Below, piece after piece: positions 10,804 through 28,884 of a DNA stretch of 29,618 nt; positions within the stretch are counted from its first letter, which is position 1; every line of letters begins with the position of its first letter. The notes under the pieces were generated by a model. It was given only the letters and a program-made list of their open reading frames with translations, was not told the origin of the DNA and searched no databases. The position numbers and the translations under genes were made by a program. Source of the DNA: a virus. The stretch is taken from positions 1-29,618 of IMG/VR virus record IMGVR_UViG_3300036045_000051. The stretch is one strand, 5' to 3'.

Positions 10804-11412
10804 TCAGGCGGCGGCGCCTGTGGCCATGGCCGTGCCCGCCTTGCGGTACGCATCGGGGGTAATGCCCATGCGCGAGCAAATCGCCAGCTCGTCGGCGCTG
10901 AGCTGCTGGTCGCCGCTGGCGGTGCCTGTGGGCGGCTTGCCTCCCGTTTGGGTGCCAGCCAGCGCGGGAATGGGCTTTGCCGCGCCCAGGAAGGAGGTGA
11001 GCGCTGCAATGTCCGTCTTGCCGAGGCCGCGTGCCCAGGTCTCCATCGCAGGCAGCAAGCGTCCGTCGGCCAACGCGGGCTTGATGAGTGCGTCCACGTC
11101 GGCTTCCGCCTGGCGGGCCGTGAGTGCTGCGACCTGGCCCTGCAGGGCCGTAACAGATTCGATGGGCACGTACTTGGCCGGGTCAGGCGTGCCGGGCTGG
11201 GCGCTGCGCAGACTGGCGCATGCTGCAGTGGCGGCTTCGGGCGTTGCGTCGGCCGGGAGCTGCAGCGCGGTGCAGACAGCGGTGGCCACGTTGGCGCGGG
11301 CCTGCAGCGGCTGCAGCGGGCCAAGGGCCGTGAGCGCGGCAACGGCTGCGGGCTCGGTGGTGGTTTCGGGCAGACCGAGGGCGGCCAGCAAGGCTTTGAG
11401 CAAGGGATTCAC
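10804..11412 (-). CDS. Internal in-frame scaffold protein (Mu Z-like)
   Basis: Within the protease gene, an in-frame GTG at 11412-11410 is preceded by AGGAG (11423-11419) at exactly 6-nt spacing. It would start a 202-aa protein, M-NPLLKALLAALGLPE, covering the helical Ala-rich half. In Mu the scaffold Z is made from the 3' part of gene I from an internal start in the same frame, so this site is the likely equivalent. The ribosome binding site is better than that of the full-length gene, as needed for an abundant scaffold. Confidence 0.7.
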   Translation of the reverse strand: MNPLLKALLAALGLPETTTEPAAVAALTALGPLQPLQARANVATAVCTALQLPADATPEAATAACASLRSAQPGTPDPAKYVPIESVTALQGQVAALTARQAEADVDALIKPALADGRLLPAMETWARGLGKTDIAALTSFLGAAKPIPALAGTQTGGKPPTGTASGDQQLSADELAICSRMGITPDAYRKAGTAMATGAAA

Positions 11413-12015
11413 GGAGGGCTCCTGTTGTGGAGGGTTGGCGGGAAGGAAAGCGGCGGTGGCGGCGGCGACGAGGGAGAGCGGCTCCATGCCGCTGATGCCG
11501 GGGTCGTTGGTAAGCGCGCCCATGTGGATGGCGAGCACCGTGCCGGTGACCTCGTCGTACTCGAAGACGGGGGAGAAATAGAGGTACTCGCCCGCCGTGA
11601 TGTAGTCGCGGGCGCGGGCGGTCAGCTCGGCCACGGCGTACAGGCCCTGGCCGTCGATCCAGCGCAGATCACGAATCCAGCCCGCTGCCGGTGCGGGCTG
11701 GCCGTTCTGTTCTTTCTTGAGGGTCTGGTGCTCGTAGTCGATGACCGGGACCTTGCCCCGCGTCTTGAATCGCTCGATGACGTGTTGAGCGCTGGCGGCG
11801 TCGATGCGCCAGGCGCCGGGCTTCAGCTCGCGCCCGTCGTTGGGGCGGAAGGTACCCGCAGGGGTGAGCTGCAGCATGACCGTGCTGCCCGATGTTTGCG
11901 CGGTCTTGGCGGGCACGCCGAACGTGCAGGCGGCAATGGCCAGGGCTGCAGCGGCGGTTGCGCCTGCGTTGCAGACGGCTATGCGGGTGTTACGGGAGGC
12001 GGTGCGGGAAGGCAT
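10804..12015 (-). CDS. I: Mu I-like head maturation protease (with C-terminal scaffold)
   Basis: A 403-aa protein of the Mu-like protease family. Diagnostic is the block around residues 93-158: VIDYEHQTLKKEQNGQPAP, AAGWIRDLRW, then ITAGEYLYFSPVFEYDEVTG and HMGALTNDPGI. It cleaves the scaffold and capsid components during prohead maturation. The N-terminal 45 residues are Ala-rich (TRIAVCNAGATAAAALAIAA), as is usual in this family and not a true signal peptide. After about residue 200 the protein becomes helical and low in complexity, like Mu Z scaffold. The ATG at 12015 has a poor ribosome binding site but lies only 34 bp from the 22-bp repeat proposed as a late promoter element. Confidence 0.92.
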   Translation of the reverse strand: MPSRTASRNTRIAVCNAGATAAAALAIAACTFGVPAKTAQTSGSTVMLQLTPAGTFRPNDGRELKPGAWRIDAASAQHVIERFKTRGKVPVIDYEHQTLKKEQNGQPAPAAGWIRDLRWIDGQGLYAVAELTARARDYITAGEYLYFSPVFEYDEVTGTVLAIHMGALTNDPGISGMEPLSLVAAATAAFLPANPPQQEPSVNPLLKALLAALGLPETTTEPAAVAALTALGPLQPLQARANVATAVCTALQLPADATPEAATAACASLRSAQPGTPDPAKYVPIESVTALQGQVAALTARQAEADVDALIKPALADGRLLPAMETWARGLGKTDIAALTSFLGAAKPIPALAGTQTGGKPPTGTASGDQQLSADELAICSRMGITPDAYRKAGTAMATGAAA

Positions 12016-12048
12016 GCCGCCATGGTCGGCATCTGGCCCCGCGAAGTA

Positions 12049-12070
12049 TTGGGAACTAGGACACTATTTG
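12049..12070 (-). promoter_or_regulatory. 22-bp repeat, copy 1: candidate late promoter element upstream of protease gene
   Basis: A perfect 22-bp sequence with core GGGAACTAGGACACTATT on the plus strand; the only other copy is at 20588-20609. Here it covers the stop of the gpG-like gene and ends 33 bp before the protease ATG. Read with the genes (minus strand) it runs from CAAATAGTGT to TTCCCAA. Mu has a late promoter (PI) at the equivalent site, so a binding site for a late activator or a promoter is proposed. Confidence 0.6.
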
Positions 12071-12624
12071 CCGCCGCTCGCAAGCCAGTCGCGGATGATG
12101 CGCGAGATCTCGCGGTCGTCTTCGGCACTGAGCCCCAGGAACGGGCGCGCCGGGATCTTCACGAAGTGGACAGGAACGGTGACCGCCCTCTCTGTCGCTC
12201 TCTTGTGCTTCTTGCCCGCAAACAGCACCTTGCCCGCAACGCTACGGTACCGCACTGTGGCCTGGCGCTCGGGCATGTCGATCTCGCCACCGAACTGATG
12301 GATGGCGGCGTACTTCTGGTTACTGCCGACCTCGACCGAGTCCCCGCCTGTGACCTGGTAGTGGATGTACGAGCGCAGATAGCCGCGCAGCGTGAGCACC
12401 TTGTCCTTGTTGTACCGCTTACGCCTGGCGTAACGCTTTTGCAATGGAGCCCACTGCGTGCCATCGGGGGCGGTCTGGGTCTTGAAGCGCTTCTGGGTGC
12501 TGCCCTGCAGATACTCGCCCAAGCGCGGCATCAGGCCGCGGGGGTCGCGGGCGGCCTGGTCCGCCATGAAGGCGTTCTGGCGGTCCAGCTCGGCCTGGTC
12601 GATGATGAGGCGGGTTCCGGCCAT
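12064..12624 (-). CDS. G: Phage virion morphogenesis / tail completion protein, Mu gpG-like
   Basis: A 186-aa basic protein of the phage virion morphogenesis family (Mu gpG, P2 gpS-like). Diagnostic segments are LMPRLGEYLQGSTQKRFKTQ, APDGTQWAPLQKRYARRK, GYLRSYIHYQV, YAAIHQFGG and IPARPFLGLSAEDDREI. It is needed for head completion or head-tail joining. The ATG follows AGGAG with 9-nt spacing. It lies between MuF and the protease gene, exactly as in Mu. Its stop codon lies inside the 22-bp repeat. Confidence 0.93.
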   Translation of the reverse strand: MAGTRLIIDQAELDRQNAFMADQAARDPRGLMPRLGEYLQGSTQKRFKTQTAPDGTQWAPLQKRYARRKRYNKDKVLTLRGYLRSYIHYQVTGGDSVEVGSNQKYAAIHQFGGEIDMPERQATVRYRSVAGKVLFAGKKHKRATERAVTVPVHFVKIPARPFLGLSAEDDREISRIIRDWLASGGK

Positions 12625-12628
12625 GCGG

Positions 12629-12733
12629 TCAATCTCCTACAATGGGCCATCCATCGGACGGGCAGCGGCTGCAACCGCCTCCAATCCCACGTCCGGGCGG
12701 GCCAGCGTGTTGCAGTGCGCTGGCCTTTTTCAT
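12629..12733 (-). CDS. Possible 34-aa small protein between MuF and gpG
   Basis: A 34-codon frame starts with an ATG that overlaps the MuF stop in an ATGA and ends 5 nt before the gpG ATG. The product starts MKKASALQHAGPPG and has one C-x2-C pair (CSRC) before PSDGWPIVGD. The coupling on both sides favours translation, but the length is at the limit of what can be judged, and the same DNA encodes a strong hairpin. It could be a leader peptide coupling MuF and gpG translation. No family is recognised. Confidence 0.35.
   Translation of the reverse strand: MKKASALQHAGPPGRGIGGGCSRCPSDGWPIVGD
12700..12731 (+). terminator. Intrinsic terminator-like hairpin on the plus strand
   Basis: On the plus strand an 8-bp stem (GGCCAGCG 12700-12707, CGCTGGCC 12718-12725) with a 10-nt loop is followed by TTTTT (12726-12730). 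This is a textbook rho-independent terminator, but it points against the late genes. It could stop antisense transcription or end a short plus-strand RNA; a TACAAT box lies at 12638-12643. Confidence 0.6.
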
Positions 12734-13974
12734 GGCTCGCGCCGATACAGGCGCACGCCGACGCGCAAGTCCTCGACGTAAGCGCCTGGCGCGGGTGGGA
12801 ATGCCGTCACTCCGGCCCACCCATCGGCCCCCAGCTCGAACACGACCAGGCCGGGTGTCTCCCGGCCCTCCACGGCAAAGCGCGCTACATAGCGGCGGCG
12901 CACCACGGCGCGGCCCTGGGCATGCAGCCATTCGACACGCGCCCAGATTTCGTCGGGCTCCTGCAGCGCCTGGGCCAGCAGCGGCAGGTAGCGCTCGCGC
13001 CCGCGCTTGAGCACCTTCCATTCGCCCTGCGCGTCCTGGAACAACTGCGCGCCCACCACCAGGCGCTCGCCGATCACGTCGCGCACGATGGCGGGCTCGG
13101 CCAGCGTGGCGCCGAAGCGATCGAGGAACGCGCCGACGTAGTCCTGGGGCGCCATGCCAGCGGGCAGCACCACCGAAGCGGGCAGCGGCCGGGGTGGCGG
13201 CAGCGGGTCGGAGGGGCGGCGGTTGGGCAGGCCCACGCTGCCCGAGCTGCTCGGCCCACCACCGATGGGATCGGGGCGCTCAGGCGGAATGGCGCTGCGC
13301 AGCCGGGCGCTGCCTGGCGCGTACTCGAAACCAGGGTCGATGCCTTCAGGCACGCGCACGGTGCGCGGCCCCAGTGCGCTGCGCTGGCCGATGGTGCGCT
13401 CCACATAGTTGAACTGGGGCGCCTGGTCGGGCCTGGACTTGCCCATGCGGACCAGGTCGCTCAGCCACCGGCCGCGCACCTTGCAGTTGCAGCCCCAGCC
13501 GTTGGGCGGGAACATGATCTGCCAGGCCGGGTTGTCTTTCTCCAGCGTGATGCCGTTCCAGCTCACGTGCACAGGGCGCGGGTGCTCTACCCAGTCCTGG
13601 TGCTCGTATTCCCAGTACGGCGCCTCCTGGAGCTGCTGCCAGCGCCCGGCCGCGTAGCTGGTGGACAGGTTGGTGTCGTAGATGACGCGGCTGCGCCAAT
13701 TGCGCCCGCCGTTGTAGTCCCAGCCATGCGTGGCCACGATGCGGTCGAAGTCCTTGCGGAAGTCTTCCAAGGTGCTGCCACCCGAGATGGCCTGCTCCAC
13801 GGCGGCGCGAAAGTCCGTGACGATGGCATCGCGGTTGGCGCCCGCCACCACGAAAGCCCAGTCGTGCTCCCGCGTGTAGATGTCGGTCCAGCCATCGGTG
13901 GGCAGGTTGAGCTTGCGGCGGAAAAATTCCGCCTGTTCGGTGAATGGCAGGGAACCGTAGGCGGCGGTGGGCAT
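12730..13974 (-). CDS. F: MuF head morphogenesis protein with C-terminal PBECR-like nuclease domain
   Basis: A 414-aa two-domain protein. Residues about 1-200 are the MuF domain (Phage_Mu_F): FTEQAEFFRRKLNLPTDGWT, GWDYNGGRNWRSRVIYDTNL and the signature FPPNGWGCNCKVRGRW at 155-170. MuF proteins are minor capsid components linked to the portal. A Pro/Ser-rich linker (about 225-268) leads to a separate domain (about 275-412) containing LFQDAQGEWKVLKRGRERYL, DEIWARVEWL, RRRYVARFAVEG and VVFELGADGWAGVTAF. This matches the PBECR family (phage Barnase/EndoU/ColicinE5/RelE-like nucleases), found at the ends of phage MuF proteins and proposed to enter the cell with the DNA. Nuclease activity is inferred. 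Confidence 0.92.
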   Translation of the reverse strand: MPTAAYGSLPFTEQAEFFRRKLNLPTDGWTDIYTREHDWAFVVAGANRDAIVTDFRAAVEQAISGGSTLEDFRKDFDRIVATHGWDYNGGRNWRSRVIYDTNLSTSYAAGRWQQLQEAPYWEYEHQDWVEHPRPVHVSWNGITLEKDNPAWQIMFPPNGWGCNCKVRGRWLSDLVRMGKSRPDQAPQFNYVERTIGQRSALGPRTVRVPEGIDPGFEYAPGSARLRSAIPPERPDPIGGGPSSSGSVGLPNRRPSDPLPPPRPLPASVVLPAGMAPQDYVGAFLDRFGATLAEPAIVRDVIGERLVVGAQLFQDAQGEWKVLKRGRERYLPLLAQALQEPDEIWARVEWLHAQGRAVVRRRYVARFAVEGRETPGLVVFELGADGWAGVTAFPPAPGAYVEDLRVGVRLYRREP

Positions 13975-13993
13975 GTGGCGGGGCCGTGGAGGG

Positions 13994-14008
13994 TTTTATA
14001 AACGTTTA
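13994..14008 (-). promoter_or_regulatory. AT-rich palindrome with -10-like TATAAA upstream of MuF
   Basis: In the 91-bp gap between portal and MuF, a 10-bp perfect palindrome TAAACGTTTA (13999-14008) overlaps TATAAA on the minus strand. It is the only AT-rich island in a very GC-rich stretch. No convincing -35 box is present, so it may be a weak or activator-dependent promoter or a protein site. Confidence 0.3.
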
Positions 14009-14065
14009 CGGGCGCGTGACGCGGGCATGGGCGTGCAACGGGGGCGGCAAGGGGCTGCAGCGGCC

Positions 14066-15655
14066 CTATGCGCCCGCGCCGCCAGCGGCCTCCTGCATGA
14101 CCTCGTAGCGGCCAGCCGCTTGCGCGACGCGCAGCGCCTCGGCCATGGCGGCGGCGTACTGGTCGAGCGTCATGCCGGGCAGCAGCGCGTCCAGGCCGTC
14201 ACGGATTTCTGTGAGCGACTGGGCGCGCATCACGAGCTCGCGCACCTGGCCGATCCAGCCGTCCACGGCCGGGGCGAGATTGCCTGCCAGGCTCGGCTGC
14301 ATCTGCACGGGTGGCGGCAGCACGCCAGGGGCGGTGAACTGTGCGGTGGCGGCGGCCAAGGCCGCAGGCAACGAGGACGGCCTGGCCTGCAGGGGCATGA
14401 GCACGGGCTCATTGCCCTGAGCCTGGGGGATGCCCAGGCGCTCATGCACCCAGGCCACGGGCGGGCGCACGCCCATATCGACCAGGCCGGGCAAGCCCTG
14501 GCTAAAAGACGTCAGGTCTTCGCGCTCTTGCGTCTTCAGGCGGAACTGCGGCAGGCGGCGCAGGCCACCGGGCGCCAGGCCGTTGAGCGAAGCCACGGCG
14601 AGCACCAGGTCGCGGGTGAGCGTGGTGTTGGTCTGCCGGATATCGCCGTCGCGCAAGTCCTTGCGCACTTCGTTGTGCACATTGCCCAGCGCATTGGTGC
14701 TGGCCGCGCCGTCGGCGCCGCTGGTGAGGGTACCGCCCAAGATGACCTTCGACTGGTTGCGCTCGCACCAGCTCATCATCAGCTCGAACGCCTTGGGATC
14801 GCCTGTGGCTGCTTCGTGGAACTCCAACAGCATGCCGTCTGGCACGATGCCTGCGGCGTTGTGGCCGATGGCGGCCAGCGCCCGCAGCAGTGTGGCCTTT
14901 TCCTTCTCGCTGGCGCTGGCAGGATACTTGCCAACGCGCAGCGGAATGCCGTAAATCTCCAGGAACTCGGCCAGGTCGCCCACGCTGTAGTTCTTGAACA
15001 GGTATGTCCACACGAGCTGGCGGAACAGCGCGGCTCGCTCCAGGTAGCCGCTCTTTGCCTTGTGGACGTGGGTGATCCAGCCGAAGGGAGCGAGCGGGTC
15101 GCCCATGACGCCGTCCACCGTGTTGTTGCTGCGCAGGCGCAGCTCTTGTCGGTAGCCGCGATGCAGGGTGAACCAGGACTGAGGGCGGTGCGTGATGGTC
15201 TTGGGCACCCAGTAGCCCTCCACGCGGTGCCATTCGATCTCCAGGCACGCGAAGCCTTTGCCGATGGCGTCTGTGAGGTCGAAGACCATGTCCTCGAAAT
15301 CGGGCACCTCCATGAGCAGCTCGCCGAGCTGGGCGGCGATCTTCTTCTCGGCCGCGTCGGCGCCCTCGGGTGGCACCACGTCCCAGTCGAGCACGCAGGC
15401 ACGGCGGCGCTTGCCCATCTCGGCGGCGATGTGGCCGTCCTTTTCCTCCATGTCCTCGAACAGCTCGAACTGGGCGACCAAGTCGCCGTTCTCTGCGGCG
15501 TCCAGGATTTTGGCGAGGCGCGAGGGCGTGAGGCCGCGCGTGGGGTGGGTCTGCAGCTCGCGCTGCAAGTGCAGAAGCCGCGATGTTTGCGGCTCCTGCA
15601 GGTCGGGCATGGTGATGGGCTGGCCGTCCGGGCCGAGGATGCGAGAGGTTGCCAT
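14066..15655 (-). CDS. Portal protein, Mu gp29-like (DUF935)
   Basis: A 529-aa protein of the Mu gp29/DUF935 portal family. It forms the dodecameric ring at the head vertex through which DNA is packaged and ejected. Visible family blocks are RILGPDGQPI near the N-terminus, DGHIAAEMGKRRRACVLDWDV, DLTDAIGKGFACLEIEW, FLEIYGIPLRVGKYP, GIVPDGMLLEFHEA and GGTLTSGADG. The C-terminal 100 residues are Ala/Pro/Gln-rich helical. The ATG lies 5 nt after the terminase stop, and MuF follows, as in Mu. Confidence 0.95.
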   Translation of the reverse strand: MATSRILGPDGQPITMPDLQEPQTSRLLHLQRELQTHPTRGLTPSRLAKILDAAENGDLVAQFELFEDMEEKDGHIAAEMGKRRRACVLDWDVVPPEGADAAEKKIAAQLGELLMEVPDFEDMVFDLTDAIGKGFACLEIEWHRVEGYWVPKTITHRPQSWFTLHRGYRQELRLRSNNTVDGVMGDPLAPFGWITHVHKAKSGYLERAALFRQLVWTYLFKNYSVGDLAEFLEIYGIPLRVGKYPASASEKEKATLLRALAAIGHNAAGIVPDGMLLEFHEAATGDPKAFELMMSWCERNQSKVILGGTLTSGADGAASTNALGNVHNEVRKDLRDGDIRQTNTTLTRDLVLAVASLNGLAPGGLRRLPQFRLKTQEREDLTSFSQGLPGLVDMGVRPPVAWVHERLGIPQAQGNEPVLMPLQARPSSLPAALAAATAQFTAPGVLPPPVQMQPSLAGNLAPAVDGWIGQVRELVMRAQSLTEIRDGLDALLPGMTLDQYAAAMAEALRVAQAAGRYEVMQEAAGGAGA

Positions 15656-15660
15656 GGTGC

Positions 15661-17325
15661 CTACCAGGTAGCGCGCGGTTCGACCAGGCTGAGGTAGTCC
15701 TCGCCTTCGTCTTCGGCCGCGCCGAGGTTGTCGTAGCCGCGCGGGAGCGTGGGCACGGGGATGAAGTCGATGGGGGCGCTCAGGTTGAGCGTGGCGAACC
15801 AGCCCAGGGCGAGCATGGAGGCGCCGTCGCCGTGGCGGTACAGGTCGGGGTCTTTGATGTCCTTGCGGCGGGCCTTCGCCACCATGGGGATGCCGTCCAC
15901 CTCTTCGATGGCGCGCAGGTCTTGCGCGATGTTGGGGTCGGCGGCGATGTCGATCATGCCGTCCTCGAAGCCCTGCACCAGCTTGGGCATCCAGGTGCCG
16001 TACCAGGCGCGGTTGAACTTGACCTGGTGCACGTGGGTATGGCCGAACTTGTCGGCGGTCTCTTCGGCCAGCGGCTCGCCGTTGCCGCCCGCGTCCATGG
16101 CGCCGCCGCAGCGGCGCGGCAGGCGCGCGATGGCGTACCAGGTGATCTGCTTTTGCTGGGCGTAGGGCACCTTGTGCATTTCGATGACAAGAGGCACCTG
16201 GCGGCGCATGCCCGTGGTCAGGGCTGTTGCGCCCCAGATGGAGAAGTCACGGTGACGGGCGTAGTCGTGGCTGAAAACGTGGCGCGCCGTCTTGTCGAGG
16301 CGCTCCAGGGCCGGGGCGAGATACCGCTCGATCCAGTCGGCCACCCAGGCTTCGCGCTCGGCCGGGCTCTTGATAGTGAAGTCCTCGTCCAGCGCGAGGC
16401 GCAACACGCAGGATTCGGGCAGCACCATGGCCTGCTCGATCCAGACACCGGGCAGGCAAACGCCGTTGCCGTCGCGCGGGATGGCGTCCAGCTCTTCGCG
16501 CATGGCGGCCTTGCGCACGCCGTAGCCATTGCGGATCTTGCTGTACCAGGCTTGCTTGCCTTCGAGTGTGGGCGGGGTGCCCTTCATGAAACAGACGCGC
16601 TCGTACAGGCCGTTGGCTACGGCGTCGTCAAAGGTGACGGTGACCACACGGGCATCGGCACCATAGCGGCCCGCCTCGATGTCACGGCAGAACTGGGCGA
16701 AGGGGTTGTTCTTGCCGTTGTGCGAGCTGATGACGGTGATCTGGCCGCCCCAGATCAGCAGAGCGGTGGCGGCGTCGAGCACGCCTTGCACGTCGGGGTG
16801 GAACGCGGCTTCGTCGATGACGACGTGGCCCTGTAGGCCCCGGATGTTGGCGGGGCGGCTGGAGAGCGCGCATACCTGGAAGCCCGACGCAAAGCGGATG
16901 CGGTAGGCCGTGATGTGGCGGGTTTTGCCGTTGTCGTCCTGGTCTTCAAACAGGAACTCCTCGACCCCGGATATGCCCTGGCCCTGGGCCTGGGCGATCA
17001 CACGGGCGAACTTGGCGCAGTAGCCTATGGCTTCGAGGCCCTTCTCCTTGGTGTCGCCGATGTAGTAGACGTTGTCGCCACCAGCGCTCTTGCGGGCGGC
17101 GGCCACCAGTGTCTTGTTGAGCATCGTGCCGAAGGTGATGCCGGTGCGGCGCCCCTTGGGGACGGCGATGATGGCCGCATGGATGGATGCCACCTCGCGC
17201 TGGTGCTTCATCAGCACGCCATCGGCGAGCGGGTCGAAGCCCTCCGGAATAGACCGCACGCTGGGCGGGAGATCGTCCCATTCCAGCGTGCGCAGGGTTG
17301 TTGCCAGCGGCTTGATGGCGTGCAT
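15661..17325 (-). CDS. Terminase large subunit, Mu gp28-like
   Basis: A 554-aa packaging motor. A Walker A-like motif AVPKGRRTG lies at residues 54-62 and a Walker B HVVIDEAAF at 167-175, with D171 and E172 as metal and catalytic residues. The coupling segment VISSHNGKNNPFAQF follows at 198-212. The C-terminal RNase H-like nuclease begins near HVFSHDYARHRDFSIWG (349-365), where Asp residues would bind metal. Mu-type terminases cut host-flanked DNA headful by headful from integrated copies. The gene follows the small terminase and a small membrane protein and precedes the portal by 5 nt. Confidence 0.95.
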   Translation of the reverse strand: MHAIKPLATTLRTLEWDDLPPSVRSIPEGFDPLADGVLMKHQREVASIHAAIIAVPKGRRTGITFGTMLNKTLVAAARKSAGGDNVYYIGDTKEKGLEAIGYCAKFARVIAQAQGQGISGVEEFLFEDQDDNGKTRHITAYRIRFASGFQVCALSSRPANIRGLQGHVVIDEAAFHPDVQGVLDAATALLIWGGQITVISSHNGKNNPFAQFCRDIEAGRYGADARVVTVTFDDAVANGLYERVCFMKGTPPTLEGKQAWYSKIRNGYGVRKAAMREELDAIPRDGNGVCLPGVWIEQAMVLPESCVLRLALDEDFTIKSPAEREAWVADWIERYLAPALERLDKTARHVFSHDYARHRDFSIWGATALTTGMRRQVPLVIEMHKVPYAQQKQITWYAIARLPRRCGGAMDAGGNGEPLAEETADKFGHTHVHQVKFNRAWYGTWMPKLVQGFEDGMIDIAADPNIAQDLRAIEEVDGIPMVAKARRKDIKDPDLYRHGDGASMLALGWFATLNLSAPIDFIPVPTLPRGYDNLGAAEDEGEDYLSLVEPRATW

Positions 17326-17334
17326 TTCAGTCCG

Positions 17335-17523
17335 TCATTTCAGGAAGGCCGCCACCGCCCATGCGATGGCGGAAATGATCGACACGGGCACAAGCGCGAG
17401 CAGATTGTTCAAGCCCGCACCAATGCCATCGCCGTGATCTACCAGGAACAGCGCCCAGACAATCCCGGCGAGCGTGACGGCGGCGGGAATCCACCACCAT
17501 GCGAGAGTGAGTGTGAAAACCAT
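17335..17523 (-). CDS. Small two-helix membrane protein
   Basis: A 62-aa protein with two hydrophobic segments (about 8-29, WWWIPAAVTLAGIVWALFLV, and 39-60, NLLALVPVSIISAIAWAVAA) joined by a short polar turn. It lies tightly between the small and large terminase genes (12-nt and 9-nt gaps), so it is almost certainly translated. No family is recognised. An auxiliary holin or a superinfection-related membrane peptide are both possible; the sequence does not decide. Confidence 0.75.
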   Translation of the reverse strand: MVFTLTLAWWWIPAAVTLAGIVWALFLVDHGDGIGAGLNNLLALVPVSIISAIAWAVAAFLK

Positions 17524-17535
17524 GGGTGCCCCGAT

Positions 17536-18129
17536 CTATTGCCCGATGCCCAGGAACTTGCGGCGCCAGAAGTCCACCTGGGCTTCGTCCATGCCCTGTG
17601 CCTTGGCGACTTCCTGCAGGTTGGCCTCTTGCTCTGCCAGCAGCTTCTTGCGGGTGGCTTCCTCGACCTTGGCCTGGAACTCCTTGAGGTTGATGCTGCT
17701 GCGGGTGAGCGTGGCGATGTTCTTGGCGGCCTTGCTGAGCAGGGCCACACGCTCGCCAGGGTCGGCCTTCTCTCCGTCCTCGCCCACTTCGTCGGCCTCC
17801 TGCAGCGCCAGGATGGCTTCGAACAGCTCGGTCTGCACCATGGCCGTGAGGGCCTCGCTGCGGGCGTCTTTGTCGTCACCTGCGTGGGCCTGGATCATCT
17901 TGGCGGCTTCGGTGCTGGCGCGGATGGCAGATAGGCGGCGCTCCAGCTTCTGGCCGTAGCGACCCACGGCCGAGCGGCTGGGCAAGCTGCCCGCCGTCGC
18001 TGCGGCGGGGTAGCGCGCCTGCAGGTCGGCGATCAGCTCGTCCAGCGTCATGCTGCCCGAGGCGAGCATGGCCTGGATGTATGCCTTGATCTCCGGGTCG
18101 AGCCGGTCGATGCTGCTTTTGCGGCCCAT
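17536..18129 (-). CDS. Small terminase subunit, Mu gp27-like (DUF3486)
   Basis: A 197-aa helical protein of the DUF3486 family, taken as the small terminase of Mu-like phages. The start MGRKSSIDRLDPEIKAYIQA, the MTLDELIADLQARYP segment and SRSAVGRYGQKLERRLSAIR form a DNA-binding N-terminal domain of winged-helix type. The C-terminal half is coiled coil with INLKEFQAKVEEATRKKL. It recognises phage DNA near the packaging end and loads the gp28-like motor. It starts 3 nt after the gp26-like stop. Confidence 0.93.
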   Translation of the reverse strand: MGRKSSIDRLDPEIKAYIQAMLASGSMTLDELIADLQARYPAAATAGSLPSRSAVGRYGQKLERRLSAIRASTEAAKMIQAHAGDDKDARSEALTAMVQTELFEAILALQEADEVGEDGEKADPGERVALLSKAAKNIATLTRSSINLKEFQAKVEEATRKKLLAEQEANLQEVAKAQGMDEAQVDFWRRKFLGIGQ

Positions 18130-18132
18130 GGG

Positions 18133-18447
18133 TTACCAGTACTTCTCGGGCCGGGCAATACCGGGCTCGCAGGGGATGGTGTATTCGGCCAGGTCCACGC
18201 CAATGCGCGTCAGGTCTGCAAACCAGCGCCCTGTGGGCTGTTTGTCCAGCTTCACCAGTTGGCGGTCGTGGAGGTAGTCCAGCTCGCGGCGCAACTCCAG
18301 CGGCGTGGCGTCGGGGTACTCGGACTGGGCCACGCTGAGGATTGGCCCTTCAAACGCGCCGATGGGGCGGGCGTTGTTGAGCGTGAGGACGATCAGCCAG
18401 CGAAGGTTCTCGCGGCGAATGCGGGCGGTGTCGATGGCGGTGCTCAT
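18133..18447 (-). CDS. Mu gp26-like winged-helix protein
   Basis: A 104-aa protein with a winged-helix pattern: RRENLRWLIVLTLNNARPIG, YPDATPLELRRELDYLHDRQ and LVKLDKQPTGRWFADLTRIG, ending LAEYTIPCEPGIARPEKYW. This is the family annotated as Mu gp26-like or VpaChn25_0724-like, conserved just before the small terminase. Its ATG overlaps the stop of the gp25-like gene in an ATGA. A packaging-related DNA-binding role is inferred. Confidence 0.88.
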   Translation of the reverse strand: MSTAIDTARIRRENLRWLIVLTLNNARPIGAFEGPILSVAQSEYPDATPLELRRELDYLHDRQLVKLDKQPTGRWFADLTRIGVDLAEYTIPCEPGIARPEKYW

Positions 18448-18794
18448 TGGCTCCCTCGGTCTTTCATGGATGCGCGCAGTTGCGCGTTGCTGACCATGGC
18501 GGCCAAGCCATCGAGCTTGGCTTCCACGATGGATTGGCCGCGCACGTAGTCTTCGCGGCGGACGTAATGGAGCGGCAGATCGGCCTGAAAGCGCAGGAAT
18601 TCACGCTCAAGGTTGCTGATGCCCTGGGCCTCGGCTTCGCGAGCCTTCTGCAGCACGTCGAAGCGTTCGTTGATGCGAGCTTCGAACTGCGCGGCAATGA
18701 GGCGGCCTGCGCCAAAGATGATTGCGGCGAAGCCTGACAACAGGGCGCCGCCGAAGCCCACCAGTTGCCAAAAGTCGATCTGCAAAGGGTTCAC
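18444..18794 (-). CDS. Mu gp25-like membrane-anchored coiled-coil protein (DUF2730-like)
   Basis: A 116-aa protein starting at GTG (18794-18792) with AGGA 5 nt upstream, giving M-NPLQIDFWQLVGFGGALL. An ATG-start version reaching 18836 would overlap the zinc-finger gene and has no ribosome binding site. One membrane segment (about 9-31, QLVGFGGALLSGFAAIIFGA) is followed by a long coiled coil. That is the layout of DUF2730/Mu gp25 proteins, which always sit in this place before gp26 and gp27. Function in the family is unknown. Confidence 0.85.
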   Translation of the reverse strand: MNPLQIDFWQLVGFGGALLSGFAAIIFGAGRLIAAQFEARINERFDVLQKAREAEAQGISNLEREFLRFQADLPLHYVRREDYVRGQSIVEAKLDGLAAMVSNAQLRASMKDRGSQ

Positions 18795-19024
18795 CGGTTT
18801 CCTCTCTTTTCCCGGCGCGCCTGGCACGCCACACAAAACTGAACGCCTGGCACCTTCTGGCGCCGGGCGTCGGGGATTTCTTCGCCGCAGCCGCGCGCCT
18901 GGCAGAACTCAGCAGAGTCGGCAGGCGTTTTGCCTGACAGGCCTGCGCGACGTGCTTGGTTGCGCAGGGCATCGCTCAGCATCTCGGCCTCACGCGCCTG
19001 GGCGCGGTCGATGTCATCGGTCAA
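18791..19024 (-). CDS. DksA/TraR-type C4 zinc-finger protein
   Basis: A 77-aa protein with a C-x4-C ... C-x2-C zinc finger (FCQARGCGEEI, then VPGVQFCVACQ) preceded by an acidic helix DRAQAREAEMLSDALRNQ. This is the arrangement of the phage TraR/DksA zinc-finger family, which can bind the RNA polymerase secondary channel. I chose a TTG start at 19024 because it overlaps the Rz1 stop (TTGA) and has a GGAGG Shine-Dalgarno 7 nt upstream; an ATG in frame at 19078 would give 95 aa. The RNA polymerase role is known for the family and only inferred here. Confidence 0.85.
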   Translation of the reverse strand: MTDDIDRAQAREAEMLSDALRNQARRAGLSGKTPADSAEFCQARGCGEEIPDARRQKVPGVQFCVACQARREKRGNR

Positions 19025-19287
19025 CGCAGGCCCTCCGTGTCTAACCAGTTCAAAAGGTCCGTCATACGGCCCGCGCACAGGCCGTACAGGTCGTACATGG
19101 ACTTGAGTTCAAGGGCTACCGGGTCCACTTGCAGCCCGCGCGGGGCTGGCGGGGGCGCCGGGCAGCGCACCGCGTATTCCGCTGGCGGCTGCTTCTGCAG
19201 CCCGGTCACGGGCGCCTTGGAGGCCGCGCACGACGTCAGGAGGGAACACGCAATCAGCGCGCTCAGGAGCAGTAGTGGTGAGCGCAT
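19021..19287 (-). CDS. Rz1: Rz1-like outer-membrane spanin lipoprotein
   Basis: An 88-aa lipoprotein with signal peptide MRSPLLLLSALIACSLLTSC; the Cys at 20 closes a lipobox (LLTSC). It is followed by a Pro-rich segment CPAPPPAPR typical of o-spanins. It starts inside the Rz-like gene in another frame and runs past its end, the overlapping Rz/Rz1 arrangement. Together with Rz it fuses the inner and outer membranes at the last step of lysis. Confidence 0.88.
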   Translation of the reverse strand: MRSPLLLLSALIACSLLTSCAASKAPVTGLQKQPPAEYAVRCPAPPPAPRGLQVDPVALELKSMYDLYGLCAGRMTDLLNWLDTEGLR

Positions 19288-19546
19288 CGGCGATCTCCGT
19301 GGTGGTTTGGGTGTTGGCCTTTTCGAGCTGGGCCAGGGCGGTGCGCATGCCCTTGTTGGCAGCGCCTGAGCGCTTGACCAGGTCGGCGTGGGCGGCGATC
19401 TGCTCGGTGATCTTTTCCAGGGCCTTGCCGTCCTGGCGGCCCTTTTCCAGAGCCTTGCCCTGGTCGAGGCCGTAGCCATAGCCGCCGATGCCTGCGGCAG
19501 CAGCGAGCAGCAGGCCCCCAACCAATGCGGTGGCGGTGTTGCTCAT
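19109..19546 (-). CDS. Rz: Rz-like inner-membrane spanin
   Basis: A 145-aa protein with an N-terminal membrane anchor (TATALVGGLLLAAAAGIGGY, residues 4-23) and a periplasmic coiled coil (KALEKGRQDGKALEKITEQ ... GMRTALAQLEKANTQTTT). This is the i-spanin layout. The ATG overlaps the endolysin stop in an ATGA. The C-terminal part is encoded by the same DNA as the start of Rz1 in a different frame, which explains its low-complexity Ala/Pro/Gly tail. Confidence 0.88.
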   Translation of the reverse strand: MSNTATALVGGLLLAAAAGIGGYGYGLDQGKALEKGRQDGKALEKITEQIAAHADLVKRSGAANKGMRTALAQLEKANTQTTTEIADALTTTAPERADCVFPPDVVRGLQGARDRAAEAAASGIRGALPGAPASPARAASGPGSP

Positions 19547-20160
19547 AGGCCCGGCCCCCATGCTGCATAGCGCGGCTGGATGATGACCAGGATGCGGTGG
19601 GGGTAGCCCAGGTTCTCGCGGCAATGCACGGCAGCGCGGCGGGCTTTGCCGCATGCCGCATCGACCTGGGCAAGCGTCGGCTGCGCGGCCCCGGTAGCCG
19701 CCGCCTCTGCCTGCCAGTGGCCGAGCCCGCCGTTGTAGGCGCGCAGCGCGACGTGCATGCGCTCGCGTGATGTGTAGCGCGCCGGGGCGCGGTCGTAGAG
19801 CCAGCGGTCGTAGGTGACCAGGGCGCGCAGTGCCCAGGCCACGTTGAACGGTTGCTGCGCCGCCAGGTCTGGGTTCAGGCTGCCGATCCAGCGCGTGGTG
19901 GTGGGCATGAATTGGGCCAGGCCCTGCGCACCGACGTGCGAGACGGCATCGGTGCGCCAGGCGCTCTCCTGATGCACCTGGGCCGCGAACACGGCCACGG
20001 GCGCATCCAGGCCCCAGGCAGCGTGCGCAGTGCGCACCAGCAGCGCGCGGTGCTGCTGGGCCGCCTGCGGTACCTGGGCACTTGCAGGCAGGGCGAAGGC
20101 CAGCAGAGCGCAGGCCGCCACCAGCAGGACAGCCCGCGCCAGGTCTTTGCGCGCCAGCAT
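19543..20160 (-). CDS. Endolysin: exported lytic transglycosylase (SLT family)
   Basis: A 205-aa muralytic enzyme. An N-terminal hydrophobic stretch (about 9-25) ends at ALPASAQ, so it is either a cleaved signal peptide or a signal-arrest-release anchor. The SLT fold follows: catalytic Glu in HQESAW (E65), GAQGLAQFMPTT (77-88) and the YNGG motif (142-145). It cleaves peptidoglycan glycan strands with formation of anhydro-muramic acid. The ATG at 20160 overlaps the holin stop (TGATG). Export through Sec would make the holin a trigger rather than the only exit route. Confidence 0.92.
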   Translation of the reverse strand: MLARKDLARAVLLVAACALLAFALPASAQVPQAAQQHRALLVRTAHAAWGLDAPVAVFAAQVHQESAWRTDAVSHVGAQGLAQFMPTTTRWIGSLNPDLAAQQPFNVAWALRALVTYDRWLYDRAPARYTSRERMHVALRAYNGGLGHWQAEAAATGAAQPTLAQVDAACGKARRAAVHCRENLGYPHRILVIIQPRYAAWGPGL

Positions 20161-20519
20161 CACAGGCCCGCCGCAACGCCCAGCACCACGGCGCCGACGA
20201 CCAGGGCGCGGCGGATCATGGCGGCGGTAAAGACGCGGATGTAGCCCTGGACGACGGGATAGTCCACGTCGCCCACGGGCTCGTCGGTGCCGTGGCGCCA
20301 GTCGCGCACCAGGTAGCCGTCAGGCCGGGCGTAGGGGAACAGGGCGCGGTCCAGCCAGTAGCCGACGACGGCGGCCAGCGCGATCAGCGTGAGCTTGTAC
20401 AGCGCCACGGGCAACTGCACGGGGGATACCACGGCCAGGGCGGCCAGCAGCACCACGGACAGCAGCAGGAACAGACTGCTGCGCGGGGCGCGCAGCCACA
20501 GGGGGATGAAGTCTTTCAC
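20160..20519 (-). CDS. Putative holin
   Basis: A 119-aa membrane protein with three hydrophobic segments (about 15-33, SLFLLLSVVLLAALAVVS; 40-60, KLTLIALAAVVGYWLDRALF; and the C-terminal VVGAVVLGVAAGL). A polar loop GYLVRDWRHGTDEPVGDVDY lies between the second and third. This resembles the putative holin family common in proteobacterial prophages. It is the first gene of the lysis cassette. The GTG at 20519-20517 is preferred because AGGAG ends 5 nt before it; another GTG two codons earlier touches the Shine-Dalgarno. Confidence 0.82.
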   Translation of the reverse strand: MKDFIPLWLRAPRSSLFLLLSVVLLAALAVVSPVQLPVALYKLTLIALAAVVGYWLDRALFPYARPDGYLVRDWRHGTDEPVGDVDYPVVQGYIRVFTAAMIRRALVVGAVVLGVAAGL

Positions 20520-20587
20520 GGGCACTCCTAGCGGGATGACTACGACTGTTGAAAGCCGTCAGTCTTCCCGCGCAGGCGTGCCGCGTC

Positions 20588-20609
20588 TTGGGAACTAGGA
20601 CACTATTTG
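20588..20609 (-). promoter_or_regulatory. 22-bp repeat, copy 2: candidate late promoter element upstream of lysis cassette
   Basis: Identical over 22 bp to 12049-12070, with different flanks on both sides. It ends 68 bp before the holin start and is the only marked signal in the gap from which the whole minus-strand late region begins. The position matches Plys of Mu. It does not resemble the published Mu C box (TTAT-N6-ATAA type), so any activator would have its own specificity. Confidence 0.6.
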
Positions 20610-20626: not shown

Positions 20627-20716
20627 ATGAAAAAAGAGTCCTGGTTCTCAATATCGGTAGGGCAATGCGGCAGACACTGCGTGCCGTCCAAAGGAGATGG
20701 TCAATGGCTAACGTGA
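20627..20716 (+). CDS. Possible 29-aa leader peptide
   Basis: A short frame starts MKKESWFSISVG, contains C-x3-C and ends QWLT. It overlaps the ribosome binding site and the first codons of the next gene in another frame, an arrangement seen in translational coupling. It is weakly reminiscent of the 34-aa frame at 12733-12629 (MKK start, Cys pair, PS-x-G near the end). It may be chance. Confidence 0.25.
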   Translation: MKKESWFSISVGQCGRHCVPSKGDGQWLT

Positions 20717-20991
20717 AAGATCAACCCGAAATGGAAGCGCCAAATGCCCCAAAACGCATTGTCTGGTCACAGTGCCCGGCTTGGGTGCTGGCTACGCATC
20801 AGCCTTTCAATGTCGTCGCAGCGACGATTCCGGCAGAGCACCTGCGGGCAGGTCAAAACCTGATCGGTCGGCTGCTGGCATCGGGAGCTTCATTCCATGA
20901 AGCACGTCCGCAATTGCAACAGTGGATTGATGGGCTACCGTCAGCTCCGCAGGGACCCGCGTCATCGGCTGACCCGAGCGCTCCAGCATGA
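20704..20991 (+). CDS. Hypothetical protein, convergent with the repressor-linked genes
   Basis: A 95-aa product starting MANVKDQPEMEAPNAPKR with an excellent AAGGAG Shine-Dalgarno 7 nt before the ATG. The middle part (PFNVVAATIPAEHLRAGQNL, GRLLASGASFHEARPQLQQW) is a plausible small helical domain and the end is Ala/Ser/Pro-rich. No family is recognised. Codon use is less GC-biased than in the phage structural genes, as in imported cargo. Its last 185 bp are antisense to the gene ending at 20807, so one of the two could be spurious; both have good start signals. Confidence 0.6.
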   Translation: MANVKDQPEMEAPNAPKRIVWSQCPAWVLATHQPFNVVAATIPAEHLRAGQNLIGRLLASGASFHEARPQLQQWIDGLPSAPQGPASSADPSAPA

Positions 20992-21289
20992 GAGCCACCG
21001 TCAGCAATTGCTGCTGACGCTCCAGAAGCACGCGCCAAGCGCGTGGCGAGATGGATGCCCAGTCATCACCTCGCAGCACCAGCGCCTCTACGGCTAGGTC
21101 GGCCTCGGGCTCGAACATGCGGTCGTAGGTGATGGTACGAATCTGCTGCAGGTTTGCGCGAAAGCGTTCGTTGAGCGGCCACAGCGCCTCGACGACCTGC
21201 CAGCCTGAAAACGGCGCAGGCCGGAAAGAATCCAGCGGTTTTCCGGTGGTTTGCTGCACATACGCGCGAATCAGTTCAAGCCGGTTCAT
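20807..21289 (-). CDS. Hypothetical protein in the repressor operon
   Basis: A 160-aa protein, MNRLELIRAYVQQTTG..., with a GGAGG Shine-Dalgarno just upstream of the ATG at 21289. It is predicted mostly helical (WPLNERFRANLQQIRTITYD, AWRVLLERQQQLLTVALMLE) without signal peptide, membrane segment or recognisable catalytic motif. It begins 17 nt after the 275-aa gene and therefore probably shares a transcript with it and the repressor. That points to expression in the lysogen. Function is unknown. Confidence 0.7.
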   Translation of the reverse strand: MNRLELIRAYVQQTTGKPLDSFRPAPFSGWQVVEALWPLNERFRANLQQIRTITYDRMFEPEADLAVEALVLRGDDWASISPRAWRVLLERQQQLLTVALMLERSGQPMTRVPAELTVAHQSTVAIADVLHGMKLPMPAADRSGFDLPAGALPESSLRRH

Positions 21290-21306
21290 CTGCCCTCCAA
21301 TCGTTT

Positions 21307-22134
21307 TCATTCGCCGCCGGGGACTGCCTGCGGTTGCGACAAGCCACCCTGTCGCTCGATCTCGGACATCAAAGTGGCGTACCTTGTTGAGTTTTCCCAG
21401 GATGCGAGCTTTTTTCGGAACTGGTCTCGCTTGTGGGCGGCCCAACATGCACTGTCGCCGGAGTACTGCCCCTTGGGCAGACGACCGGCAATCTTGGCCT
21501 CCAGCAGCTCAGCGACGCGGCACAGCAGCCGTGCAGCTTCTGAGTAGTCTTTGTGCTTGAGCAGCAGCTTGACCCATTCATCAACCCGGCCCGAATGCAC
21601 CAAAGAGTCAATCGAATTGGCGAAATAGTCCAACTCCTGGGCTGGCGCACTCACGTCCCCGTTGGCAACCCGTAGCCCATAGAGCTTTTCAGCGTAACGG
21701 ACTTCGCCGGGCTCACCCGTTAGCGCCAGTTGAAAGAGTTCAATGGCTGCGCCAGCCTCTCCGCGCTCTTGTGCCAGGGCCCCAAGGCAAAAATCACGGT
21801 AGTGCTGAGGATGCGAAACGAAGTCATCGAATGGCACTCCAGCGCGCACATAGTCAAGCATTGGCAGGACGCTAGTGACATACCGCTTCCCCGAGGTGAT
21901 GGCCTCTTGCTTTTTTTCATCGAGCGTCCAAAGCCTATGAAACCGGTACATGGCGAGTCCAGTGCGCTGTGATACGCCGCCATGCTTGCTGCGACCGATC
22001 TTGAACCCAGCGTTCACCCACTCTTCAAACGTGCGAATCCGCCCGTAGTGCGCCAGGAATGGGGCGTGCTTCGCCCCATTCAAAGGGTGCACAAACCCCT
22101 CTGGGCAAAGCTCCACGTACTCTGGCTGGCTCAT
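21307..22134 (-). CDS. Hypothetical protein downstream of the repressor (candidate lysogenic cargo)
   Basis: A 275-aa soluble protein, with AAAGG 8 nt before its ATG. The N-terminal third (HPLNGAKHAPFLAHYGRIRT, FEEWVNAGFKIGRSKHGG) is compact. Residues about 110-215 have a helix-turn-helix-repeat look (DFCLGALAQERGEAGAAIEL, LLLKHKDYSEAARLLCRVAE), similar in spacing to TPR-like repeats. The end (AHKRDQFRKKLASWENSTRY) is basic. No known family is recognised. Codon use is less GC-rich than in the late genes. It lies 15 nt after the repressor stop and is probably made in the prophage state; host-benefit or phage-exclusion roles are speculative. Confidence 0.72.
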   Translation of the reverse strand: MSQPEYVELCPEGFVHPLNGAKHAPFLAHYGRIRTFEEWVNAGFKIGRSKHGGVSQRTGLAMYRFHRLWTLDEKKQEAITSGKRYVTSVLPMLDYVRAGVPFDDFVSHPQHYRDFCLGALAQERGEAGAAIELFQLALTGEPGEVRYAEKLYGLRVANGDVSAPAQELDYFANSIDSLVHSGRVDEWVKLLLKHKDYSEAARLLCRVAELLEAKIAGRLPKGQYSGDSACWAAHKRDQFRKKLASWENSTRYATLMSEIERQGGLSQPQAVPGGE

Positions 22135-22149
22135 TCATCGTACCTTTCA

Positions 22150-22530
22150 TCATTCGCCGCCACGCGCGATTTGTTTACGGCCTGTGGCCGCTGATTTCGC
22201 TTCGAGATCGGCTGCGCGCTCTATATGGCGCCTGCCTTCCTCGTCCGTGGCTTCGTAATTTCTCACCAGAGCCCGTACACGCGGTGACAGATCTGCCATT
22301 GGAGGAGTCGGACGACTGCGCTGGCCGGTCAGGATGTAGACAACATCTGCGCCTTGCCTGACGAACGCTGCCAGCACCTCGCCTCCCGGCACCGCCTGTC
22401 CCCGCTCGCACCTACCCCAGTGCTCCCTGGTGACACCAACCAAATGCGCTACTTGGTCTTGCTTCAACCCTAGAGCTTTTCGCTCTTCGCGCAAGCGAGC
22501 GCCAAAAAGAGATTGAAAAGTCTCATTCAT
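22150..22530 (-). CDS. XRE/Cro-C1-type prophage repressor
   Basis: A 126-aa protein with an N-terminal helix-turn-helix domain: GARLREERKALGLKQDQVAH, LVGVTREHWGRCERGQAVPG and FVRQGADVVYILTGQR. The last motif is typical of short C1-like repressors of BcepMu-type and related prophages. The C-terminal half is a helical oligomerisation-type segment. I chose the ATG at 22530 because the domain starts 8 residues later; the ATG at 22566 would add 12 residues encoded by operator DNA, and neither has a strong Shine-Dalgarno. It faces the early operon and should repress the promoter at 22534-22562. Confidence 0.85.
   Translation of the reverse strand: MNETFQSLFGARLREERKALGLKQDQVAHLVGVTREHWGRCERGQAVPGGEVLAAFVRQGADVVYILTGQRSRPTPPMADLSPRVRALVRNYEATDEEGRRHIERAADLEAKSAATGRKQIARGGE
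22509..22524. promoter_or_regulatory. Operator site 1 (16-bp dyad)
   Basis: GAGATTGAAAAGTCTC, an imperfect palindrome inside the first codons of the repressor gene. It matches site 2 (read on the other strand) at 13 of 16 positions. The two centres are 33 bp apart, close to three helix turns, which would let two repressor dimers cooperate. Autoregulation by blocking elongation is possible. Confidence 0.6.
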
Positions 22531-22533
22531 CAC

Positions 22534-22562
22534 TTGAAAAAGAGATGTTTTAATCTCATAAT
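22534..22562 (+). promoter_or_regulatory. Early promoter (sigma70-type)
   Basis: TTGAAA (22534-22539), a 17-bp spacer and CATAAT (22557-22562): 5 of 6 matches to consensus in each box. Transcription would start near 22569, about 60 nt before the first early gene. It is the best sigma70 match seen in the window. Confidence 0.75.
22542..22557. promoter_or_regulatory. Operator site 2 (16-bp dyad) within the early promoter
   Basis: Minus-strand GAGATTAAAACATCTC. It fills the spacer between the -35 and -10 boxes of the plus-strand early promoter, so a bound repressor would exclude RNA polymerase. It lies just upstream of the chosen repressor start. Confidence 0.65.
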
Positions 22563-22588
22563 TCATCCCAACACGTTTCAACAACCCA

Positions 22589-22608
22589 TCACCAGCGCCA
22601 ACTGGTGA
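22589..22608 (+). promoter_or_regulatory. 7-bp inverted repeat in the early leader
   Basis: TCACCAG (22589-22595) and CTGGTGA (22602-22608) flank a 6-nt loop, between the early promoter and the first early gene. It could be a second operator, for instance for the gp16-like regulator acting as a Ner-type repressor, or a leader RNA hairpin. Confidence 0.4.
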
Positions 22609-22630
22609 CAACAAAACAGGACGCACCGCC

Positions 22631-22876
22631 ATGCCCCTAAAAACCCGCCAGCAGGTCCGCGACGAGTTCGCCAGCCGTGGCTGGTCGTACTCTGACTGGG
22701 CTCGCCAGCGCGGCTATTCGGCCGCGCTGGTTTGCATGATCGTCAACGACGACGACCGCACTCCGCAGCGCAAATGCCTGCGCGGCGAGAGCCACAACAT
22801 CGCCGTAGAACTGGGCCTGAAATCTGGCATGGTTTCCCGCGCCTCGGCCCCTCGCATGCAGTTGGCGGCGGCATGA
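22631..22876 (+). CDS. BcepMu gp16-like DNA-binding regulator
   Basis: An 81-aa first gene of the early operon. The pattern RQQVRDEFASRGWSYSDWAR, RGYSAALVCMIVNDD and CLRGESHNIAVELGLKSG is that of the BcepMu gp16 family of phage-associated helix-turn-helix proteins. These sit opposite the repressor and probably play the Ner/Cro-like role of turning down early and repressor transcription. The Shine-Dalgarno is weak (AGGA about 10 nt upstream). Confidence 0.85.
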   Translation: MPLKTRQQVRDEFASRGWSYSDWARQRGYSAALVCMIVNDDDRTPQRKCLRGESHNIAVELGLKSGMVSRASAPRMQLAAA

Positions 22877-28633: not shown

Positions 28634-28884
28634 GCCGCCGCCGCTTTCACCCCCTGGCCGCGCTGGTGTGCTGGATGGCCGTTGGCATCCTGGTCTTGCT
28701 GTTCGCCCTGGTATGGGTGGTCTCGCAGCGCGACGTGGCCGAGGTGCAACTCGACCGCGCACATTGGGCTGGCATGGAGCTGGGGCAGACGATGTGCCTG
28801 GGCTTTCGCAGCGAGATGGAGCGCGGCCAGGCCGTTCAACCTGCGGCTGTGCCCCAGCCCCGCCGTGGTGGAGGGCTGCTCTGA
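28630..28884 (+). CDS. Small single-pass membrane protein
   Basis: An 84-aa protein with a basic start MSRRRFHPL, one membrane helix (about 9-31, LVCWMAVGILVLLFALVWVV), and a polar C-terminal part with one Cys and Arg/Pro-rich end. It is coupled to both neighbours by overlapping stop/start codons. Function is unknown. A membrane protein in the semi-early region of a transposable phage could act in superinfection control, but there is no direct sign of this. Confidence 0.7.
   Translation: MSRRRFHPLAALVCWMAVGILVLLFALVWVVSQRDVAEVQLDRAHWAGMELGQTMCLGFRSEMERGQAVQPAAVPQPRRGGGLL

Follow-up and report, generated by a model that had tools for sequence, protein, structure and literature searches.

A perfect 22-bp repeat ahead of the two late operons of a Mu-like phage is best explained as the binding site of the phage's own Mor/C-family activator at two late promoters, those of the lysis operon and of the protease/head operon, a reading to which we assign a probability of about 0.92. 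The phage is represented by a viral contig of 29.6 kb (29,618 nt in full, hereafter the window), in which early genes occupy the plus strand and late genes the minus strand. The initial annotation had proposed a protein-binding or promoter element where Mu has Plys and PI; this is supported by the recurrence of a paired dyad at the same two places in related phages and by its fixed spacing to a −10 element.

Genomic Context of the 22-bp Repeat

The functional sense of the repeat is that of the late genes, on the minus strand, where it reads CAAATAGTGTCCTAGTTCCCAA with perfect copies at 12070–12049 and 20609–20588; the plus strand reads TTGGGAACTAGGACACTATTTG at 12049–12070 and 20588–20609. Both copies have the same orientation, as first described, and they precede gene I and the lysis operon, respectively, of a Mu-like late region. 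Aligned with the sites of relatives, the I-side copy contains a predicted 18-bp activator dyad, TAGTGTCCTAGTTCCCAA, at 12066–12049, and the lysis-side copy contains its counterpart at 20605–20588. The I-side copy lies 33 bp from the start codon (ATG at 12015) of gene I (10804–12015, minus strand), which encodes a Mu-like protease/scaffold protein (PF10123, E = 1.6e-109), and the TAG stop codon (12066–12064) of the G-like gene (12064–12624, minus strand; PF05069) sits inside it. The lysis-side copy precedes the holin gene (20160–20519, minus strand; PF13272, E = 1.7e-41), the first gene of the lysis/packaging operon, by 68 bp when counted to GTG 20519 and by 62 bp when counted to the mechanical ORF start, GTG 20525; GTG 20519 is the likelier start, with an AGGAG ribosome site ahead of it at 20529–20525. 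The originally reported distances of 33 and 68 bp are therefore correct, the latter from GTG 20519, as is the enclosed stop codon.

Flanks were said to differ on both sides, which they mostly do, except that the match runs three letters further on the late-gene 3′ side (AATAC/AAGAC; 24 of 25 positions identical). The sequence was also said to occur nowhere else. This holds for near-exact copies, in that the 18-mer core had no third match with three or fewer mismatches on either strand of the whole window and none in 100 dinucleotide-preserving shuffles of it, but not for a diverged opposite-strand copy at 20634–20654 (described below). Frequent occurrence in the host chromosome, raised as a possible objection, was not observed: the 16-bp core is missing from 301 genomes sampled from the family of Paenacidovorax caeni (the host genome) and is thus not a common host-chromosome word.

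Other genes of the window include, among the early plus-strand genes, a transposase (weak rve match) and a MuB-like ATPase, and a repressor-like HTH protein is encoded at 22150–22632, near the lysis operon. Between this regulator and the lysis operon lie two minus-strand genes (20807–22134) with no Pfam or PHROG match; the pair resembles accessory cargo, and homologs of the second gene occur in L055, L121/L014, L210, and L231. The F-like gene (12730–13974, minus strand) carries a C-terminal PBECR2 nuclease-fold domain.

A Paired Dyad Across Mu-Like Phages

Scanning viral contigs for the exact 16-bp core returned ten stretches. In nine of these an I-type or holin gene start follows on the late-gene strand, often behind entirely different upstream flanks, and the remaining match (L008), which has neither context, is probably due to chance. 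One contig (G003) has an unrelated head module, yet the window's exact dyad is found 51 nt ahead of the start of a different, non-homologous head protease, and in L003 and L006 the site remains intact despite gene insertions in the G–I interval. The region upstream of the holin gene gave no blastn match in phage records.

A wider collection was assembled on the basis of the portal gene and comprised 80 viral loci plus 60 loci from bacterial genomes, many of the latter in Comamonadaceae (Acidovorax, Comamonas, Ottowia, Variovorax) and Pseudomonas. In 42 distinct Mu-like phages, an 18-bp dyad is shared between the position before protease gene I and the position before the lysis operon. Its letters vary from phage to phage and agree within a phage: identity over the 18-bp core averaged 15.2/18 between the two sites of the same phage vs. 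7.6/18 across these phages, and none of 20,000 permutations of the within-phage agreement reached 15.2 (highest, 9.8). Examples of the paired element are TTTTGACACCTGTCAAAAGAC in L061 and TAGGGTCCTGGTTCCCAATAC in L021 (each with one change in the other copy), GTGCCCTCGGCCAAAAGAC in L046, CCTGAAATATTTCAGG in L232, GCGGAAGCnCTTCCGC in L209, TTTTCGCnCCTTCCAAAA in the B3 type, and GTTGAACCCCTTCC in D3112. The common site of one phage's promoters is dyad-symmetric, clearly so in relatives and weakly in the window (5 of 9 pairs).

Promoter Geometry and a Predicted Leaderless Transcript

For counting −10 elements, sites were re-picked by within-phage identity and symmetry only, with the −10 term removed to avoid bias. 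An AnnnT with its T at +35 or +36 from the dyad centre was present at 49 of the 64 sites chosen in this way, and at any other offset (outside the motif itself and the −10) AnnnT was present in at most 5. The dyad centre is located 35.5–36.5 bp upstream of the −10 T, so that taking this T as −7 places the centre at −42.5 or −43.5. In Mu, the dyad bound by Mor at Pm spans −51 to −36 with its centre at −43.5, and this promoter has a −10 and no −35 (PMC4287176). To the right of the dyad, column conservation identifies AA[G/T]AC, 17 bp from the −10, in which at best GAC matches a −35; we infer that it acts as a degenerate −35.

On the I side of the window, the −35-like AATACT (12045–12050, minus strand; role inferred) is 17 bp from the predicted −10 of the PI-equivalent promoter, GACCAT (12022–12027, minus strand), an AnnnT at the fixed distance, and, from the spacing of the start codon to the −10 T, transcription of I is predicted to begin (+1) at the A of its start codon (12015, minus strand). 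On the lysis side, the corresponding elements are AAGACG (20584–20589, minus strand; likewise a putative −35, 17 bp from the −10) and the predicted −10 of the Plys-equivalent promoter, AAGACT (20561–20566, minus strand), with a predicted +1 at 20554 and thus a predicted holin leader of about 35 nt that includes the ribosome site. Measured by spacing to these −10-like hexamers and their predicted +1 positions, the window's dyads are centred near −43, with a −10 present and a poor −35. An alternative extended −10 candidate, TGRCGGCWT, was set aside because of its overlap with the I start codon; the multi-phage alignment puts nAnnnT a few bases further upstream.

The open I frame has its first in-frame start codon 7 or 8 nt past the −10 T at 43 of the 50 distinct I sites, which predicts a leaderless I mRNA; the transcript most likely starts at or within 1–2 nt of the I start codon. 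When sites were picked without −10 information, the distance from the centre to the ATG was 42 or 43 in 19 of 32, and several of the rest, the window's included, stem from mis-centred sites. A Shine-Dalgarno-like motif precedes I at only 4 of the 50 sites; since several other late genes also have none, its absence is weak evidence, and it is the position of the ATG that counts. Late-operon sites mostly have a leader and a ribosome site instead. The annotated I start of JBD25 (21792) is an ATG at the predicted position. In D3112 (L119, 19742–19918), the annotated start of orf33 (19918) is possibly too late, since the conserved site is found further upstream, near 19793, together with an ATG at T+7; the I homology of this phage is split in two pieces, which suggests a frameshift in the record.

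A Probable Mor Activator and Its Covariation With the Dyad

Of 32 related viral contigs, 25 carry a detected Mor gene (PF08765), among them G002, the nearest full contig; 24 have it in a single copy, and in window-type phages it is located at the distal end of the early operon. The seven contigs in which Mor was undetected are probably truncated. The window's record as a whole contains no Mor match and ends ahead of the expected place, Pfam and PHROG scans of the tested genes between repressor and holin found no Mor, and a search for a contig extending the right end of the window found none. Window position 28825 aligns with position 31240 of G002, whose Mor is at 33835, and from this synteny the window phage's own Mor gene is expected about 1.8 kb beyond 29618; the helix motif of its product should resemble MTPRGM. 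The suggestion that an activator gene should be sought past that position is thus borne out in the syntenic relative, the record itself ending before it. A relative's Mor matched the Mu Mor structure 1rr7 (E = 1.9e-4); the match to Mu C was weak.

Across 27 distinct phages, distances between dyads and distances between Mor proteins are correlated (rank correlation 0.63). With portal distance held constant the partial rank correlation is 0.38, a value reached in 0 of 2,000 permutations, and the dyad–portal partial correlation given Mor is 0.20. Some phylogeny is left in the dyad–Mor correlation by a partial Mantel test, which is why natural swaps matter. Phages L021 and L180 have terminase, portal, and holin in common (86, 78, and 71%, respectively), but identity between their Mor proteins is 28% across the aligned part; the holin-side dyad is TAAAACGCTTTA in L180 vs. 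GGTCCTGGTTCCC in L021. The Mor proteins of L021 and L192 are 49% identical, and these two phages have the MTPRGM helix motif and the dyad in common. These natural swaps, together with that of the G003 head module, agree with the correlations, and dyad sequence appears to track Mor beyond phylogeny. For an L274 Mor-like protein (81% like that of G002), no matching dyad was found within the 20 kb examined.

Proposed Mechanism and Alternative Explanations

In the mechanism we propose from these patterns, the activator would be produced from the far end of the early operon and act late in the lytic cycle. Its dimer would bind the 18-bp dyad centred near −43, adjoining the degenerate −35 (AA[G/T]AC), and would recruit the host sigma70 RNA polymerase to a weak nAnnnT −10 placed 17 bp from the −35. 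The Plys equivalent would drive the holin/lysis–packaging operon, giving a holin transcript with a leader and a ribosome site, and the PI equivalent would drive the protease–scaffold/head operon, with an I transcript starting at or 1–2 nt from the I start codon. Mor binding, activation, transcript starts, and leaderless translation are all deduced here from sequence comparison. A broader generalization is, in our view, probable, with appreciable room for doubt: that many Mu-like phages of Comamonadaceae, Pseudomonas, and other hosts have a Mor-activated I promoter with its +1 on the I start codon, so that the protease–scaffold protein comes from a conserved leaderless mRNA and hardly at all from transcripts reading through from the late operon upstream, and that the dyad–Mor covariation represents a natural recognition code for the Mor/C family.

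The window's record does contain an HTH gene (22150–22632) near the lysis operon, whereas its Mor gene would lie outside it, and an unrelated host or phage regulator such as this HTH protein could bind the sites and repress or activate the late genes. We consider this unlikely, as the geometry is that of Mu Mor and the site letters follow Mor, and a host regulator with many sites is improbable given 0 of 301 host-family genomes with the 16-mer core. A role at the RNA level, in termination, processing, or antitermination, is suggested by true hairpins in some relatives and by a T-run after the dyad in the Methylophaga prophages L211 and L212. The window's sequence, however, folds at 0 kcal/mol, that is, not at all, and has no T-run, and hairpin or terminator function was rejected there; the fixed-spacing −10 with the I start codon just behind it fits a promoter, and an RNA role is very improbable.

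The copies also sit at module borders, survive insertions between G and I (L003, L006), and have an extra representative at 17593 in G006, as might be expected of a recombination linker, a short common sequence kept for exchange between phages. Such a linker predicts neither dyad symmetry, nor a fixed −10, nor covariation with Mor, nor letters that differ between phages at the same borders, and we give this explanation the least credence, although a linker role may arise as a side effect of the promoter element.

Comparison With Known Phage Promoters

The activator-site reading places the repeat beside the C-activated promoters of Mu (Plys, PI, PP, and Pmom), which share with it the same two genomic places, a dyad upstream of a weak −10, and, as predicted for the window phage, an activator of a related family. 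In Mu itself, CATAAYCCC stands at equal distance from AnnnT in both Plys and PI, for which a 10-bp match has been published (PMC4461284), so that what was first noticed in the window is the equivalent of a known Mu feature. The site sequence is different, and, as the initial annotation held on this point, the 22-mer contains none of CATAAYCCC when compared with the Mu promoter sequences; such unlikeness follows if, in this family, dyads are free to change along with Mor. Further differences from the Mu C promoters are a single Mor-type gene in these phages vs. Mor plus C in Mu, and the Mu I gene having an annotated ribosome site and leader where window-type I is predicted to be leaderless. Likeness to the Mor-activated Pm extends to the dyad centre at −43.5, the −10, and the lack of a proper −35, but window-type sites are predicted to act straight on late structural genes, with no middle activator in between. 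The further suggestion of a new late activator system is not supported: with the geometry of Mu Mor at Pm, and Mor/C-family proteins the only activator of this type found, the system is by these indications a diverged variant of the known Mor/C type.

The Pseudomonas phages B3/JBD25 and D3112 are each annotated with a single activator gene (Mor-type or late activator), and paired sites occur at the two places in them as well. The JBD25 (TTTTCG..CTTCCAAAA) and D3112 sites show the same −10 spacing, with the I-region ATG at T+7, and differ from the window in their dyad letters and, for JBD25, in a third site ahead of the tape measure gene. A description of the B3, JBD25, or D3112 sites was not found in the open-access literature searched, a body that leaves the original B3, D3112, and BcepMu genome papers outside, so that an earlier mention is possible. 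Mu C and Mor already exemplify this type of system. To judge by the open-access literature searched, the new elements would be the site family in these phages, the covariation with Mor, the single-activator layout as read from the sites, and the leaderless prediction.

One repeat leads to a rule, general and testable, for how late genes are controlled in a large group of transposable phages: sequence alone suffices to locate both late promoters of a phage, these point to its activator, and dyad–Mor pairs from dozens of phages could be used to read DNA recognition by the Mor/C family. A conserved leaderless capsid-protease mRNA in Gram-negative phages, if true, would come as a surprise and tie promoter choice to the translation of one head gene.

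Number of Sites and Variant Arrangements

Near-whole scans of window-type relatives gave two sites each. B3-type phages and several others carry a third site with the same spacing, located downstream of I at a distance of about 5.5 kb; that of JBD25 precedes the tape measure gene by 75 bp. A fourth site occurs in a few phages, and L180-type phages have a single site in the stretch examined. A tentative, diverged third site in divergent orientation, AAGAGTCCTGGTTCTCAATAT, was identified in the window at 20634–20654 (plus strand), with 4 of 21 mismatches to the group consensus and a −10-like GACACT at the correct spacing (20673–20678). It is followed, within 20634–20991 (plus strand), by a ribosome site and a 95-aa ORF without a family match; the ORF overlaps a minus-strand gene, and the arrangement may be a remnant or an antisense promoter.

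Before the lysis operon of L180, L184, L194, L195, and L204 there is a different dyad, of the TAAARCGCTTTA type, together with a divergent Mor (LTEMRVRQIV helix type). In L211 and L212, both the I-side and the late-operon dyad form a strong hairpin followed by the T-run, and this sequence may double as a terminator of the upstream operon and an activator site. Contig G006 carries two copies of its dyad (16236 and 17593, minus strand) flanking an inserted gene in the G–I interval, as though the cargo had come in together with a site.
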